NCBI RefSeq assembly: GCF_018118585.1
Contig: NZ_CP069421.1
Location: 868,001 to 932,000 of the forward strand
Source of the DNA: Aristaeella lactis
GTDB taxonomy: Bacteria; Bacillota; Clostridia; Christensenellales; Aristaeellaceae
Direction: 5' to 3'
DNA: 64,000 bases
Shown here piece after piece: positions 1 to 7,647 of this stretch (the first letter of the stretch is position 1; each line of letters begins with the position of its first letter). The translations under genes and the position numbers were made by a program. Below the pieces are notes generated by a model. That model was given only the letters and a program-made list of their open reading frames with translations, was not told the origin of the DNA and made no database searches.

Positions 1-1487
1 CCGTCATTGACAACGTTATAGTGTGTCAGCATAACGCCTTTCGGAAAACCTGTTGTACCGGATGTATACTGCATGTTGCAGACATCGTCCGGCTTGACGC
101 TCTGGGTCATGGCGTTCAGGGTCTCAACAGGAACCGAATCCGCGCGCTTCATGGCTTCTTCAAACGTCAGGCAGCCCTGCTGAACAAAACCGACTGTGAT
201 CACATTCCGGAGGAAAGGCAGCTTTTTGCAGTGCAGCGGCGTTCCGGCTTTTGTCTGGGCGATCTCCGGACATAATTCATTAATGATGGCTCTGTAATTG
301 CTGTCCAGGGCACTTTCGATCATGACCAGCGTATGGGTATCGCTCTGCCGGAGCAGGTATTCGGCCTCGTGGATTTTGTAGGCGGTGTTCACGGTTACAA
401 GAACGGCGCCGATCCTGGTCGCGGCCCAGAAGGTGATATACCAGGCGGGCACATTGGTTGCCCAGATAGCCACTTTGGAGCCTGCCCTGACGCCCATGGA
501 TATAAGCGCTCGCGCGAAACGGTCCACATCATCACGGAATTCCGAATAGGTCCGGGTATAATCAAGTGTCGTGTATTTGAACGCATACTGGTCAGGGAAT
601 TCTTCCACCAGCTGGTCCAGCACACGGCCGAATGTCAGGTCGATCAGCTCGTCTTTTTTCCAGATATATTTTCCTGTACCGTCTTCATTGAAATACAGGC
701 CTTTTTTCTTGCCACGCGGGTTTTCAAAACGGTTCATATAGTTCAGGAAATGGGGGAAAATAATATCGCGGTCGGGTATATCCTCAATCCATTCCGTTTT
801 CCATTCAAGGGAGATGAAACCGTCATAGTCAATGGAAGAAAGGGCGTTCATCATATCACGGATCGGCAGGGTGCCTTCGCCGATGAGGTTGTAGGAGCCG
901 TCATCGTCGGAATCACGTAAATGAACATGTTTCACATACCCGCCCAGGTTCCGGATTGTGGTATCCGGAATTTCCCTGAAATCCCGGTAGGGATGATGCA
1001 TATCCCACAGGGCGGCGAGTTCGTCGCAGGCGTAGCTGTCCATCAGCGCGCGCAGACGGGATGTATCAGCATAAATGCCGACGGTCTTGATCAGCAGGCA
1101 GACGTTTTCTTCCTGCGCGAGGGGAAGCAGGGCTTCAATATTCTGCCTGATCTGTTCCTCATTGTCCCTCAGGGCACAGAACGCGACATACCGTGTTTTC
1201 AGGGAGGAAGCGGTTTTGATCAGATACTGCGCCTTTTCAGGCGAATCAAAGGGCAGGGAAAGATCAATGGACGAATCCAGGCAGGGAAGGACAAGCCTGT
1301 TTTTCTTCAGTTCACGAACCGTTTCATTCAGGCTGTAGCTGTGGAAAGCTCCTCCGCGGCCTGAAAGGGAAGGAAACTCCTGGATATTATAGGGTTCGAT
1401 TCCCTGGAACCCCATTTCAGAAGCGTCCCGGACCTGTTCATCCCAGGAAAGGGAATTCCATCCCCTGGTGGAAAAGGAAAGATTCAT
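1..1487 (-). CDS. TIM-barrel / AMP-forming acyl-CoA synthetase fusion (partial, C-terminus beyond the left edge)
   Basis: An open frame starts at the ATG at 1487 and runs out of the window with no stop (495 codons visible). Residues 1 to about 255 look like a xylose-isomerase-like/AP-endonuclease-2 TIM barrel: GIEPY (29-33), WDMHH (161-165), KHVHLRD (186-192), GEG (203-205) and SLEW (226-229). From about residue 285 it becomes a class I adenylate-forming enzyme (AMP-binding acyl-CoA synthetase) with the phosphate loop YTSGTTGFPKG at 474-484. The active-site core and C-terminal lid lie outside the window. The start overlaps the upstream gene's stop by four bases (ATGA), so the two are translationally coupled. 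The usual beta-5 metal-binding Glu of the sugar isomerase fold appears to be Lys134. The domains are clear; the substrate is unknown. Confidence 0.85.
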   Translation of the reverse strand, partial: MNLSFSTRGWNSLSWDEQVRDASEMGFQGIEPYNIQEFPSLSGRGGAFHSYSLNETVRELKKNRLVLPCLDSSIDLSLPFDSPEKAQYLIKTASSLKTRYVAFCALRDNEEQIRQNIEALLPLAQEENVCLLIKTVGIYADTSRLRALMDSYACDELAALWDMHHPYRDFREIPDTTIRNLGGYVKHVHLRDSDDDGSYNLIGEGTLPIRDMMNALSSIDYDGFISLEWKTEWIEDIPDRDIIFPHFLNYMNRFENPRGKKKGLYFNEDGTGKYIWKKDELIDLTFGRVLDQLVEEFPDQYAFKYTTLDYTRTYSEFRDDVDRFARALISMGVRAGSKVAIWATNVPAWYITFWAATRIGAVLVTVNTAYKIHEAEYLLRQSDTHTLVMIESALDSNYRAIINELCPEIAQTKAGTPLHCKKLPFLRNVITVGFVQQGCLTFEEAMKRADSVPVETLNAMTQSVKPDDVCNMQYTSGTTGFPKGVMLTHYNVVND

Positions 1488-2911
1488 GCTTCTTCCTCCT
1501 CATAGACGATCTTGTTGACGGCGTTGATGTAAGCCATAATGCCTGCACCGACGATATCAGTTGATATACCTCGGCCGGAATACAGTTTTCCTTCCCAGCG
1601 GAGACGGACAACTGTTTCACCCATGGCTTCCCGTCCTTCTGTAACGGACTGGATCTGGAAGTCATCCAGCTCGAAGTGCCTGCCGGTTGCCTGTTCAACG
1701 GAATTGAACGCTGCGTCAATAACACCGTCTCCGGAAGCGGTTCCTTCAATTTCCTGATTATGGAACATCAGCTTCATATGCGCGACGGCGCCGATCTGGT
1801 TGCCTGTGCTGATCATGTAATGAATATCATGATAGGCGGGAGGAACCTGCATCGCTTCAGCAGCTATGATCGCATCCAGTTCCTTCAGGGTAATATGTTC
1901 CTTTTTTTCTACTGTCTGGCAGAAGCTTTTCCATATCTTCTGCTGATCGTCAGCGTTCAGATCATAACCGAGTTTTTCGGCAGCCCGTATCACGGTTTCC
2001 ATACTGTCGTGGATGCTCAGAAGATAATCCGCGTCAGATTCCTCATCACTGAAGCCGGAACCGATCTCGGATTTCCGTCCGGAGGCCTGGCAGATTGTAT
2101 TCACCTGTCCGGTGATCTTCCGGATTTTTTCGACACCGATGTCTGTGCAGACACCCATGGTGCCGCCCTTGGCGTTCAGGATGCGAACAATATTCGGCAG
2201 CGATATCGCGGTAGCGCTGCAGGCAGTGGCTTTGATCTCCCTTACTCCGCAGCGGATGGCGGACACAGCGTTGGCGTCCGCCATGTTCAGTTCACCGGAG
2301 CAATAAAACCCGAGGGTTGTTTTGCTCAGATCCGGAATCTCTTTTTTCAGTGATTCAAGCCAGGCGGATATTTCCTCCGGCATCATGGCACCGGCAGTGT
2401 CACACAGCGTAACAACAGAAGCGCCGGCACCGATGGCAGCGGTGATCACCTTCACAAGGAAAGAGCAGTCGCTTCTGGTTGCGTCCTGCGCGATAAACTC
2501 CACGTTTTCTGTCAGCTCACGGCAGCACCGGACCATTTCCTCCACTTTCCGGCAGGCAGCATCCGCTTTCATATGGAGGATATATTCCATCTGAACGGAA
2601 CTGACAGGAGCAGCGACCTGCAGCCTGGGATTGACGGCTTCCTTCATGGCTTCCCAGGTGATCTGGACAGATTCCTTATCCATCAGGTCCACAGGAACCG
2701 AAACAGCTGCATTTTTCACGGCTGAACAGATGGATTTCACAAGAAGCCTGTCTATTTTCTTCTGCCTGATCGGGCAGAGATCTATGGAAGAAACACCGAG
2801 CTTATCGATCAGGCGGCATAATTCTATTTTTTCCCTGAAACTGAGTTCACACTGGTTTTCAGACTGGGGCAGCGTACAGTCACTGACATGGACAAGTTCG
2901 TTTTTACTCAT
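1484..2911 (-). CDS. 2-isopropylmalate synthase-like protein lacking the metal-binding residues, with intact LeuA regulatory domain
   Basis: 475 residues. The N-terminal ~330 residues follow the HMGL-like (DRE-TIM metallolyase) barrel. The C-terminal ~110 residues match the LeuA allosteric/dimer domain well (EGREAMGE, GRGISTDIVGAG). The catalytic site does not match. The LRDG(E/N)Q motif reads LPQSENQ (14-20), so Arg-Asp is Pro-Gln. The HxHND ligand motif reads YCSGE. The NGIGERAGN motif reads CSATAISLPN, so its Asn ligand is Cys. All four residues that hold the divalent metal in known 2-isopropylmalate synthases are therefore replaced. The start at 2911 has GGGAGG seven to eight bases upstream; a longer frame to 3040 only reads through the T-box leader. 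It is first gene of an operon with the TIM/AMP-ligase fusion. Possible roles are a leucine-sensing pseudoenzyme or an enzyme with altered chemistry. Confidence 0.85.
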   Translation of the reverse strand: MSKNELVHVSDCTLPQSENQCELSFREKIELCRLIDKLGVSSIDLCPIRQKKIDRLLVKSICSAVKNAAVSVPVDLMDKESVQITWEAMKEAVNPRLQVAAPVSSVQMEYILHMKADAACRKVEEMVRCCRELTENVEFIAQDATRSDCSFLVKVITAAIGAGASVVTLCDTAGAMMPEEISAWLESLKKEIPDLSKTTLGFYCSGELNMADANAVSAIRCGVREIKATACSATAISLPNIVRILNAKGGTMGVCTDIGVEKIRKITGQVNTICQASGRKSEIGSGFSDEESDADYLLSIHDSMETVIRAAEKLGYDLNADDQQKIWKSFCQTVEKKEHITLKELDAIIAAEAMQVPPAYHDIHYMISTGNQIGAVAHMKLMFHNQEIEGTASGDGVIDAAFNSVEQATGRHFELDDFQIQSVTEGREAMGETVVRLRWEGKLYSGRGISTDIVGAGIMAYINAVNKIVYEEEEA

Positions 2912-2941
2912 GGAACAATCCTCCCTTGGACAATTGAAACT

Positions 2942-3213
2942 AAAAAGCCCTGAAGCATATGCTTCAGGGACGAAAAACAATTTCTCCGCGGTACCACCCA
3001 TATTACTCCTGCAACAGGAGTCTCTCTTGAACTCTGACAAGTTCTCAGCCTGTTACGGGGCGCCCGGGTTTCCTTAATAACCTGACGGTGTTCACGAAAC
3101 CAACTCCGGAAGCAGTCTCCCTACGCTCGGCACCGTCTCGCAGCATCCGACGGCTCTCTGCAGCGTCTGCGGTAAGGATTACCATCCATCATCGTCTTTC
3201 ATCAATATGAAAT
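2942..3213 (-). promoter_or_regulatory. T-box leader (tRNA-sensing), probably leucine-specific
   Basis: The T-box sequence TGGGTGGTACCGCGG lies at 2986-3000 (minus strand). It is followed by an 11-bp perfect palindrome (2948-2969) and a run of five T, which is the intrinsic terminator. Upstream is a Stem I with an AGAGAG bulge motif and an apical GGATGCTGCGAG. Placing the specifier by the spacing seen in the Bacillus glyQS leader (six bases before GAG) gives CTG (3113-3115), a leucine codon. Neighbouring readings (ACT Thr, TGC Cys) cannot be excluded. The leader class is certain; the amino acid is inferred. Confidence 0.93.
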
Positions 3214-3220
3214 TACATGG

Positions 3221-3249
3221 ATACTAACATAATTCAAAAAAGGTGTCAA
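3221..3249 (-). promoter_or_regulatory. Promoter of the T-box operon
   Basis: TTGACA (3244-3249) and TAGTAT (3221-3226) are separated by 17 bp, reading leftward. Transcription would start near 3214, just before Stem I of the T-box. Confidence 0.75.
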
Positions 3250-3377
3250 TAAAGAAACCGTCAGCATTTCAGGCACTTTTTTGTCTTTTCTTTGTATATG
3301 ATCAGGGGATACGGAAATGCGGCATCAATCCACGAAAAAACGCGGAATATCCGCATCCCGCAGGAAGGTGATTTTGT

Positions 3378-4434: not shown

Positions 4435-6770
4435 CAGAGAACAAAGCTGAAAAAGGAAGGAATTTCAGGGATTCTTTCCGGAAATGGCTGCACTCTTCAC
4501 AAAGCACATGTCTCCTGATGATCCTGGCCGCTTTTCTGATTATCCTCGGCCTGCTGTTATGTGTGTGTACTCCGCGTAAATACGACCTTCGTGTCAATTC
4601 AATCTCCCATGTCACGATTGACGCCACGAAGGATGTCATCGATAAGGTCACAACAGAGCAGCTGCAGAACGCAGCCGCGGAACAGGTTACGCCGAATTAT
4701 CATTATAAACAGGGAGTTAAGGAAGAAGTACTTACATCCCTTGCCGACGCTTTCCAGGAGCTTCGTTCCATCCAGCAATACGGACTGACGCTGAGAACGG
4801 ACGAAAACGGTCAGCTGATTGCGGACCGTCCGTTTTCCGAAGAGGAGATCGAGTATGCTTTCTCCATGGTGGACATTCTTGAACTGAACCGTGCCCAGAT
4901 GGAAATCATCCTCAGGTCTGATACAAATGAATTTGAAAAAATGGTCAGTACCGTCACGAAAGCTGTGGAAAATTCCCTGAACTCGTCCACAATCCGTGAG
5001 GGACAGGTGAGCCAGGCGATCAACCTCATTCAGCAGAACGTCGGATATTCGCTGGACATTTCGTTCACCCAGATCATCGTACCGACTGTCCTGCGGACCT
5101 GTATCAAGCCGAATATGATCATAGATCCGGCAGAAACAGAAGAGGCCCGCCAGAAAGCCAGGGACGCGGTTGAACCGATCGTTTACCTGCAGGGGCAGAA
5201 CATTATCCGTGAAGGAGACCGTATCACCCTCAGCCAGGTCGAAATGATCAGAAGCCTGGGCATGCTGAATGAAAATGACTATGATTACTCCGTCTATTAC
5301 GGAGCATCCATTATTGTGCTTGTTTCCATGGTGATCCTTCTGATGATGCTCCGGCTGCTGCTGAAGGACGTACTGACGGATATCCGGAAACTGGCGGTTA
5401 TCCTGATCATCCTTGTTCTTTGCGTCGGATCAGCCGTCCTGGCCACGCTGCTTCCCAGCATCTATATTATTCCGATATCCCTTGGTGCGATCCTCGGAAC
5501 GGTTCTCATCGGTTACAGGGCAGGACTTGTCCTGACGGTTCCGCTAACGCTGCTTTTTGCCGCCATTACTTCCTGCAGCAGCACTACATCATTCTACGAT
5601 GTTGTGCTTATCACAGCCAACACGCTGTCCTGCGGTGTGGCGACAGTCTGGTTCCTGAAGGGCAGGCCCCAGCGTATACGCGTATTGCTGTCAGGACTGA
5701 TCGCCGCGGTTTTCAATGTTGTGATGATCGCCGGCATCAAACTGCTCACCTCCGCGGAAACGCTGAATATGGTTCAGACCGGAGTCTGGACCATAGCGGG
5801 CAGTCTGCTGAGCGGCACCATCGCCGTGGCTCTGCAGCCTGCCTTTGAGGCGGTATTCCACCTGGCTACGCCCAGCAGGCTCCTGGAAATTGCCAATCCA
5901 AATCATCCTCTTATGAAACGGCTGATGATCGAGGCGCCCGGAACCTATCACCATTCCATCATCGTCGCGAACCTGGCGGAAGCAGCCGCGGATAAGATCG
6001 GCGCCAACGCTTACCTGGCCCGTGCCGGCGCGTATTATCACGATATCGGAAAACTGAAACGGCCGGGTTATTTCAGCGAAAACCAACACGGGACCAATCC
6101 GCACGAAAAAACAGATCCTTATATTTCCGCCGCTATCCTGACCTCCCATACAAAGGACGGCGCGCTGATGGCCCAGAAGGCACACCTGCCTCCTGAAATC
6201 CAGGATATTATCCTGCAGCATCATGGCGTGACTCCTGTGATGTTCTTCTATCATAAGGCGCTTCAGCTGTCTGACGGCAAACATGTGGATATTAATGATT
6301 TCCGTTATTCTGGTCCCAAACCCAGGACCCGTGAAGCTTCCATTGTGATGATGGCGGACAGTATTGAGGCCGCGGTCCGTTCCATGAAGGATCCTACACC
6401 TAAAGCCATTGACCAGTATATTGAACGCCTCATCCGCGGAAAACTGGAAGACGGACAGCTCAGTGAATGCCCGCTTTCACTGCATGACATTGATGAGATC
6501 TGCAGTGCTTTCTCCGGCATCCTTAAAGGCGTTTATCATGAAAGAATAGAGTATCCCAAAGTGGAGAAATACGCTGTTCAGCCCGGAACAAAAACGAGCC
6601 AGACTGTTTCAGAAGATGAATCCGTAAAGAACACGGAAAAGTCTTCGGATTCTGATCAGGCCAATGAGAACAGAAACGCGGCGGAAAAGAAAGTGAATGC
6701 CGCGGAAAAGCCTGATGAACAGAATAATGCCGTTCAGGAGACCGGCAGGGAGGCAGAAAGTGCTGATTGA
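4431..6770 (+). CDS. pgpH: PgpH/YqfF-type membrane HD phosphohydrolase (cyclic-di-AMP phosphodiesterase family)
   Basis: 779 residues. One N-terminal membrane helix (about 23-44) is followed by an extracytoplasmic 7TMR-HDED region (to about 285), a seven-helix membrane block (about 290-470) and a cytoplasmic HD domain (about 500-710) with TYHHS and the HD pair YYHDIGK. This is the architecture of Listeria PgpH, which hydrolyses c-di-AMP. The last ~70 residues are a hydrophilic Glu/Asn/Ser-rich tail not needed by the family. The DNA for that tail also carries the Shine-Dalgarno site and GTG start of the next gene. The gene begins inside the phoH stop (ATGA), which implies coupled translation. 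Confidence 0.9.
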   Translation: MTENKAEKGRNFRDSFRKWLHSSQSTCLLMILAAFLIILGLLLCVCTPRKYDLRVNSISHVTIDATKDVIDKVTTEQLQNAAAEQVTPNYHYKQGVKEEVLTSLADAFQELRSIQQYGLTLRTDENGQLIADRPFSEEEIEYAFSMVDILELNRAQMEIILRSDTNEFEKMVSTVTKAVENSLNSSTIREGQVSQAINLIQQNVGYSLDISFTQIIVPTVLRTCIKPNMIIDPAETEEARQKARDAVEPIVYLQGQNIIREGDRITLSQVEMIRSLGMLNENDYDYSVYYGASIIVLVSMVILLMMLRLLLKDVLTDIRKLAVILIILVLCVGSAVLATLLPSIYIIPISLGAILGTVLIGYRAGLVLTVPLTLLFAAITSCSSTTSFYDVVLITANTLSCGVATVWFLKGRPQRIRVLLSGLIAAVFNVVMIAGIKLLTSAETLNMVQTGVWTIAGSLLSGTIAVALQPAFEAVFHLATPSRLLEIANPNHPLMKRLMIEAPGTYHHSIIVANLAEAAADKIGANAYLARAGAYYHDIGKLKRPGYFSENQHGTNPHEKTDPYISAAILTSHTKDGALMAQKAHLPPEIQDIILQHHGVTPVMFFYHKALQLSDGKHVDINDFRYSGPKPRTREASIVMMADSIEAAVRSMKDPTPKAIDQYIERLIRGKLEDGQLSECPLSLHDIDEICSAFSGILKGVYHERIEYPKVEKYAVQPGTKTSQTVSEDESVKNTEKSSDSDQANENRNAAEKKVNAAEKPDEQNNAVQETGREAESAD

Positions 6771-7647
6771 TTGGGATATAAGATATCAGACTGATGATGA
6801 TATCCTGGAGAAAATGCAGGCCGCGGCGGATCTTTGCCTGAAATGTGAAAACGTTTCTGCGCATTGTGCTATTTCCGTATGCATGTGCGATGATGAAACC
6901 ATTCAGGAAATCAATAGACAATACAGGGGGATCGACCGCTCCACGGACGTATTATCGTTTCCTTCAGTGCGTTATCCGGAAGGGAAAACAGCAGGCAGCT
7001 GTCCTGCTCTTCTCAGGCAGGAATATGATGATGAATACGGATCGGTTTTCCTGGGGGATTTGTTTATCTCAGTTCCCCATATGGCAGCTCAGGCCAGGGA
7101 ATACGGCCATTCTGAAATGAGGGAGGCGGTATACCTCCTGGTTCACGGGATCTGTCATCTGATGGGATATGATCATATAGAAGACGATGATAAGAAAAGG
7201 ATGAGAGCAATGGAGAAAAAGATTCTTTCAGCCGCTTCCGTAACACGGGACACAGATCCGGAAAAAGACGAACAGCTGCTGGAAACGGCACGGGAAGCCA
7301 TGAAAAAAAGTTATTCGCCTTATTCATCCTATCCAGTTGGCGCGGCACTGCATTCCACTGACGGAAGGATCTTTACAGGATGCAATATTGAAAACGCTTC
7401 CTTCGGATTAACAAACTGCGCGGAACGTACAGCACTGTTCAAGGCGGTCAGCGAAGGCGCGCTTTCCTTTGATACCATCGCTATCGCCGCCACGACAAAA
7501 GCCTGGCCCTGCGGCGCATGCAGGCAGGTACTGAACGAATTCGCGCCGGATATCAGGATCCTTGTCACATGGCCGGGCCATGTTGAGGAGAAAAAACTTA
7601 CAGAGCTGCTGCCTGAAGGTTTCGGGCCGCACAGCATGGATCAGTAA
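6760..7647 (+). CDS. ybeY-cdd: Fused YbeY endoribonuclease - cytidine deaminase
   Basis: One uninterrupted 295-residue frame. Residues 1 to ~145 are YbeY, the metal-dependent rRNA-maturation endonuclease, with HGICHLMGYDH at 129-139. After a charged linker (~145-173), residues ~174-295 are a cytidine deaminase with the zinc motif CAE at 220-222 and PCGAC at 250-254. The start is GTG at 6760, six bases after GGGAGG (6748-6753); it overlaps the upstream stop by 11 bases. The two genes are normally separate, often with dgkA between them. Here dgkA is missing and no stop codon or Shine-Dalgarno site separates the halves, although an internal ATG lies near the start of the deaminase. Both active sites look intact. 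Confidence 0.9.
   Translation: MLIDWDIRYQTDDDILEKMQAAADLCLKCENVSAHCAISVCMCDDETIQEINRQYRGIDRSTDVLSFPSVRYPEGKTAGSCPALLRQEYDDEYGSVFLGDLFISVPHMAAQAREYGHSEMREAVYLLVHGICHLMGYDHIEDDDKKRMRAMEKKILSAASVTRDTDPEKDEQLLETAREAMKKSYSPYSSYPVGAALHSTDGRIFTGCNIENASFGLTNCAERTALFKAVSEGALSFDTIAIAATTKAWPCGACRQVLNEFAPDIRILVTWPGHVEEKKLTELLPEGFGPHSMDQ

Follow-up and report, generated by a model that had tools for sequence, protein, structure and literature searches.

What becomes of a 2-isopropylmalate synthase (IPMS) homologue that has lost the residues by which such enzymes hold their metal? The question is raised by a gene at positions 1484-2911 (minus strand) of a 64,000-nucleotide stretch of the Aristaeella lactis genome (contig NZ_CP069421.1, positions 868,001 to 932,000), here called the window. 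The protein it encodes, together with its family, is referred to as LeuA*. We put a probability of roughly 0.55 on LeuA* being a pseudoenzyme that senses leucine and acts as regulatory subunit to the acyl-CoA ligase whose gene follows directly, in a pathway leading from isovalerate to leucine. Feature coordinates are collected in Table 1.

The LeuA* reading frame is open throughout, with 475 codons and no internal stops. Pfam analysis identified an HMGL-like domain (106 bits, above cut-off) and a LeuA_dimer domain (PF08502; 96.1 bits against a cut-off of 24.9). Scores against the IPMS models fell far below their cut-offs, at 243.8 bits for leuA_bact (TIGR00973; cut-off 598.7) and 265.8 bits for PRK00915 (cut-off 532). 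A scan of a public genome collection gave 114 confirmed LeuA* relatives, of which 80 were kept as loci; by record title these came from Clostridia, Eggerthellaceae and Lentisphaeria. Together with the window protein they form a set of 81 sequences, 27 of which were used for a smaller alignment (A1), and 20 canonical LeuA proteins from the same taxonomic order served as the reference. In a tree the LeuA* group was separated from these 20 with a support of 1.0.

A first-pass annotation of this DNA had reported that LRDG(E/N)Q was replaced by LPQSENQ and HxHND by YCSGE, and both replacements were read in the open reading frame and in the alignment, the former at the place of canonical LRDG(E)Q. 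It had also given the Asn of NGIGERAGN as Cys; this was correct for the first Asn (Cys or Ser in LeuA*), whereas the last Asn, which we take by analogy with HMG-CoA lyase to be the metal ligand, is Ala235, within a loop from which GER has been deleted. The window protein retains none of the four IPMS metal ligands, as had been claimed, and the loss is family-wide: 79 of 81 LeuA* sequences keep none, while L014 has the Asp and L023 has one His. Aligned with the 20 canonical proteins, Asp17 and His205 were each retained in one LeuA* sequence and His207 and Asn241 in none, and the residues now found at these places are variable. Canonical His303 and Gln304, in the GIHQHG segment whose His is presumably the catalytic base, were gaps in 81/81. 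The Arg adjoining the first ligand, which we equate with R80 of the Mycobacterium tuberculosis enzyme, was retained in 40/81 and is Pro in the window protein. In a review (PMC10464499), the R80A and R80K forms of M. tuberculosis IPMS are tabulated in a row naming destroyed activity, the table being flattened in the text. Because the ligands are lost and the GIHQHG segment is deleted across the family, LeuA* cannot be a normal IPMS, which agrees with the earlier view of a barrel dead for that reaction. Judged by its defining residues LeuA* is not an IPMS, and it is almost certain that the ability to catalyse that reaction has been lost.

Structural comparison gave no indication that the ligands had moved. 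An AlphaFold2 model of LeuA* (mean pLDDT 86.5, pTM 0.58) returned IPMS-family structures as its top Foldseek matches, and the model barrel was placed onto the Neisseria IPMS 3RMJ at 1.6-1.7 A over 277 columns. Alignments to PDB entries passed through the HxHND region without gaps. Across the 81 sequences no barrel His column was conserved in as many as 73 members, and a His four residues past the second lost His was present in 23. On these grounds a relocation of the ligands within the barrel, the outcome that alignment with known structures might have revealed, was rejected.

The pattern of constraint on LeuA* is the reverse of that on its canonical relatives. Mean pairwise identity among LeuA* proteins was 41.9% for the barrel and 65.5% for the dimer domain (3240 pairs), compared with 60.1% and 44.0%, respectively, among the 20 canonical proteins (190 pairs), so that in LeuA* the dimer domain is the better-kept part. 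Among the columns invariant or nearly so in canonical LeuA from Gly427 on, which number 18, 10 were retained in 81/81 LeuA* and 5 in 43 to 80 of the 81. The remaining 3 were altered in nearly all members (Tyr452 to Phe, Asp462 to Glu and Glu489 to Gly), and the description of this domain as canonical therefore holds for most of its signature but not for these positions. Leucine binding by the domain is predicted. With respect to the barrel, omega was 0.026-0.297 in all 46 close LeuA* pairs, so this part of the protein is constrained and not decaying; omega of the dimer domain was lower still in 41 of the 46. A sequencing error or pseudogene was also rejected, given that ligand loss is common to a family of 81 open frames with low omega.

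The gene immediately downstream of LeuA* encodes an isomerase-like TIM barrel fused to an AMP-binding acyl-CoA ligase. It is cut by the edge of the window; the full protein, read from a further stretch of the same genome (L092:6981-9488), has 836 amino acids. Its ATG overlaps the LeuA* stop codon in the tetranucleotide ATGA (1484-1487). A fusion gene start adjoined LeuA* in 80/80 loci and both halves of the fusion were present in 79, the contig of the remaining locus (L083) stopping 928 bases past LeuA*. The ligase start was placed, as the start codon nearest the N-terminal motif, in 58 of the 80 loci; the spacing from LeuA* was a 4-base overlap in 21 of these and at most 5 bases in 54. In an alignment of 22 ligases (A2) the core motifs TSGTTGFPKG and GGEN and the Lys of NAAGK were invariant, and the nearest named model, PRK12583, scored below its cut-off. 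The structure model of the fusion had a mean pLDDT of 73.4 and was poor at residues 469-557, and for this reason only the general ligase fold was used. In the isomerase-like barrel, Glu at position 134 was replaced by K, R or S in 9/22 sequences and Glu at 228 was missing in L025, L080 and L086. If, as we assume, these Glu residues are metal ligands, their loss in some members indicates that this second barrel may be non-catalytic too. The fusion protein is probably the partner of LeuA*.

Control by a T-box, proposed in the first-pass annotation, was borne out by an Rfam match upstream of LeuA* that exceeded the gathering score, with a specifier read as leucine. A leucine T-box turns genes on when leucine is scarce. 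The T-box anti-terminator motif, searched within 700 bases of the LeuA* gene, was found in 37/81 sequences, and the specifier could be read by a simple pattern in 31 of these leaders and not in the other 6. All 31 readable specifiers were leucine codons (17 CUG, 14 CUC), the switch between the two leaving the amino acid the same. Rfam was run on 24 loci picked for having the motif; 22 reached the gathering score, L022 and L034 falling below it, and the alignments of the window and 19 loci concurred with the leucine reading.

The gene content of the A. lactis genome, estimated by a completeness tool at 98.8%, was then compared with what leucine synthesis by either route would need. A LeuA_dimer search found no second protein besides LeuA*, and for this reason the term paralog, applied to LeuA* earlier, is wrong. 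No separate canonical leuA was found: the other three PF00682 matches were judged by eye to be Re-citrate-synthase-like, HMGL-aldolase-like and OadA-like. The sole Iso_dh match likewise reads by eye as isocitrate dehydrogenase, leaving no candidate for LeuB. KARI (IlvC) was not found in a PF01450 search, and the single LeuC-superfamily protein scored as an aconitase. With no KARI found to supply 2-ketoisovalerate in the usual way, no LeuB found and only an aconitase, isopropylmalate chemistry of the ordinary kind would be missing its standard source of substrate as well as the enzymes that act after it. By comparison, an acyl-CoA ligase, a 2-oxoacid:ferredoxin oxidoreductase and branched-chain aminotransferase (BCAT) are all encoded. 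VorB (569.1 bits) and BCAT (490.5 bits) scored above cut-off; VorB is preceded by a ferredoxin-like reading frame (named by eye) and followed by beta- and gamma-like genes. In the gut anaerobes that carry LeuA*, the ordinary route to leucine appears to have been lost. The A. lactis genome has BCAT and VOR but no KARI was found in it; its supply of valine and isoleucine, too, may rest on branched acids or on uptake.

Gene content was also surveyed in 297 genomes of the same taxonomic order, in which LeuA* was called at 454 bits or more with the A1 profile (canonical LeuA scored 402 or less). LeuA* was present in 45 genomes, a partial LeuA*-like match in G056 being excluded; LeuB, LeuA and VorB above cut-off were present in 106, 71 and 161, respectively. 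LeuA* and LeuB occurred together in one genome where 16 were expected (p 1.3e-8), and LeuA* and canonical LeuA in one where 10.8 were expected (p 4e-5), these p values being descriptive and overstated because the genomes are related. VorB was present in 42/45 LeuA* genomes compared with 119/252 others, its presence in G192, G243 and G264 being judged above cut-off from E-values. The three LeuA* genomes without VorB (G171, G225 and G236) are 77-81% complete. Of 39 LeuA* genomes for which a VorB was listed, 16 had it no more than 12 kb from LeuA*; for canonical LeuA the corresponding figure was 2/51.

Neighbouring genes across the 80 loci, many of which are shortened by contig ends, included VorB in 16, VorA in 16, VorC in 15, BCAT in 19 and PFOR in 19. 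In L080 a single same-strand cluster holds VorB (543.8 bits; cut-off 399), thiamine pyrophosphate (TPP)-binding and gamma 2-oxoacid:ferredoxin oxidoreductase subunits, BCAT (479 bits; cut-off 307), the T-box, LeuA*, the fusion gene and an Amidohydro_2 gene. The TPP-binding and gamma subunits scored below cut-off with named models and above it with Pfam domains. That a reductive-carboxylation pathway from isovalerate to leucine is encoded is well supported.

Within such a pathway the ligase would activate isovalerate (3-methylbutyrate) with CoA and ATP to isovaleryl-CoA, the oxidoreductase VorBAC (possibly PFOR in Lentisphaeria) would reductively carboxylate this to 4-methyl-2-oxopentanoate, and BCAT would convert the keto acid to leucine. 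When charged tRNA-Leu is scarce the leucine T-box would turn on LeuA* and the ligase, and leucine bound to the LeuA_dimer domain would shut the ligase down, so that the first committed step would be held back by its end product, the control that LeuA exerts in the isopropylmalate pathway. What the sequences themselves establish is the loss of catalytic residues, the conservation pattern, the order and content of the genes, and the T-box with its codon. From the T-box codon and gene context we infer that isovalerate is the ligase substrate and leucine the product; physical contact between LeuA* and the ligase and flux in this direction are further parts of the proposal. We extend this more tentatively, at slightly less than even odds, to the family as a whole: the pseudo-IPMS would be the dedicated leucine sensor of an isovalerate-CoA ligase, the isopropylmalate pathway having been replaced by isovalerate carboxylation and the old feedback sensor having been retained and coupled to the enzyme that now opens the pathway. 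Reports that rumen anaerobes make leucine from isovalerate go back to the 1960s, and the formation of leucine by carboxylation in the rumen is credited to Allison and colleagues (as cited in PMC7356843).

Several observations weigh against this reading. G280 holds LeuA*, canonical LeuA and LeuB together. Matches to LeuB below cut-off were found in the LeuA* genomes G082 (348 bits, cut-off 353) and G287, G012 and G179 (250-268 bits), and counting these raises the overlap of LeuA* and LeuB to five genomes. Furthermore, a canonical-like LeuA is spread across two reading frames in G142, and full-length matches resembling LeuA or CimA, at 221-241 bits, were seen in G026, G067, G079 and G082. The relatedness of the survey genomes, noted above, tells in the same direction. 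Solved relatives of the ligase include aryl, long-chain, malonate and oxalate ligases, and its specificity is unreadable from sequence; the scheme does not account for the isomerase-like barrel or for the Amidohydro_2 protein (17/80 loci). In A. lactis the beta- and gamma-like genes after VorB both scored below their model cut-offs, and VOR and BCAT lie away from the LeuA* locus. A T-box motif was absent within 700 bases in 44/81 sequences, including all Lentisphaeria-titled loci. Even in L080 the T-box sits between BCAT and LeuA* and therefore controls LeuA* and the ligase but leaves Vor and BCAT outside its reach, and the A. lactis stretches around the VOR, BCAT and indolepyruvate oxidoreductase (IOR) genes contained no T-box at the gathering score. 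Finally, the branched acid to amino acid direction is described as 'not proven yet' in PMC7709123.

With its metal ligands lost, LeuA* could still be an active enzyme whose new chemistry needs no metal, such as a lyase or condensing reaction that forms one sequence of steps with those of the isomerase-like barrel and the ligase. Positions E27, S104, M108, E109, Y110, D143, R146 and K227 of the barrel are invariant in the 27 A1 sequences, purifying selection acts on the barrel and the fused second TIM barrel suggests further chemistry; we nevertheless regard such an enzyme as improbable, since family members differ in the residues at the former ligand positions, the GIHQHG segment has been deleted and the barrel evolves faster than the dimer domain. 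A role for LeuA* as scaffold, or as a sensor of pathway intermediates, with an emptied barrel that binds isovalerate or 4-methyl-2-oxopentanoate and a dimer domain that dimerises or binds leucine, appears about equally improbable. An IPMS structure with ketoisocaproate (by the title of PDB 3HPS) indicates that this barrel lineage can accept the keto acid, but here again conservation is weaker in the barrel than in the dimer domain.

VOR, BCAT and acyl-CoA ligases are in general reversible in principle, and the genes could accordingly serve the breakdown of leucine to isovalerate, with LeuA* sensing leucine excess. We judge this less likely again, as a leucine T-box, by what is generally understood of its mechanism, activates genes under leucine scarcity, and as LeuA* accompanies the absence of LeuB in the manner expected of a replacement pathway. 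A decaying relic retained through gene order would account for the lost active site and is very unlikely indeed: the frame is intact in 81/81, the dimer domain is 66% identical on average, omega is low and coupling to the ligase gene is tight. The reading of LeuA* as the leucine-sensing subunit of the ligase is the one retained.

Table 1. Features of the LeuA* locus, in window coordinates.
Feature	Position	Strand	Evidence
LeuA* gene, IPMS homologue without metal ligands, 475 amino acids	1484..2911	-	Open reading frame, Pfam and alignment
Degenerate HMGL/DRE-TIM barrel lacking the metal ligands and the GER loop, about residues 7-255	2147..2893	-	Pfam, alignment, structure model
LeuA_dimer regulatory domain, residues 340-468	1508..1894	-	Pfam, alignment
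Partner gene, AP_endonuc_2 (isomerase-like) TIM barrel and AMP-binding acyl-CoA ligase	3..1487, edge-cut	-	Pfam; genome sequence
T-box leader (RF00230) upstream of LeuA*	2963..3201	-	Rfam, 97.7 bits against gathering score 93
Predicted specifier codon CUG (leucine)	3113..3115	-	Alignment to Rfam consensus and homologous place in other leaders

A number of further observations were made on the surrounding genes. The Amidohydro_2 protein stands beside the LeuA* pair in 17/80 loci (for example L080:9846-10691). An HTH-cupin-AMP-ligase protein was found near LeuA* in 10/80 loci (for example L055:6338-8605; best model MbcS, below cut-off); it may be a second ligase for branched acids, one that carries a regulator domain of its own. 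LeuA* and the fusion gene were also present in Eggerthellaceae-titled records, and in others with Lentisphaerae or Victivallales in the title the pair has PFOR as a neighbour (L028, L031 and L042 are among these records); this distribution suggests that the pair has moved between phyla by transfer. Elsewhere in the A. lactis genome (L094:3407-5035 and 1509-3263, minus strand) an indolepyruvate-oxidoreductase-like subunit (by eye and by a POR_N match) adjoins a further AMP-binding ligase, an arrangement that one would expect if reductive carboxylation of aryl acids also served to make aromatic amino acids. The window also contains a 316-residue reading frame with endoribonuclease YbeY and cytidine deaminase domains (6697-7647, plus strand), the start of which is resembled by that of a 295-residue frame in L007 (1266-2150).

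When LeuA* is compared with known systems, it shares with canonical LeuA (leuA_bact, TIGR00973) the fold, the domain order and most of the dimer-domain signature columns, and differs in having no metal ligands, GER loop or GIHQHG segment. Its top Foldseek match was the plant methylthioalkylmalate synthase (MAM; PDB 6E1J), a repurposed IPMS relative that is said to have lost the regulatory domain and kept catalysis; LeuA*, with catalysis lost and the regulatory domain kept, is its mirror image. The use of a dead enzyme as a regulatory subunit would be familiar in kind from HisZ, the HisRS paralogue that is the regulatory subunit of HisG. In HisZ, as is proposed for LeuA*, an enzyme's inactive relative has been put to new use as a subunit that controls the synthesis of an amino acid, although fold and pathway are different and the LeuA* complex is putative. 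MbcS-type acyl-CoA synthetases support the use of short branched acids (PMC10026030), as proposed for the LeuA*-linked ligase; the latter is a protein distinct from them, and one joined to an isomerase-like barrel. The predicted reactions are those of the rumen isovalerate route (Allison and colleagues, as cited in PMC7356843), and many LeuA* records are rumen or gut metagenome-assembled genomes by title. In the literature searched no leucine sensor or T-box gene pair was found assigned to that route, nor any set of genes for it that brings its own feedback by leucine. No description of LeuA* or of the LeuA*-ligase pair was found in the same search, which left most subscription papers outside its scope.

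If the proposal is correct, LeuA* and its ligase would provide marker genes for the isovalerate-to-leucine route and would predict uncultured gut lineages that rely on isovalerate from others. Naming LeuA* genes as IPMS by similarity would credit genomes with a leucine pathway that they lack. The family would also demonstrate that an allosteric sensor can outlive the enzyme on which it evolved.

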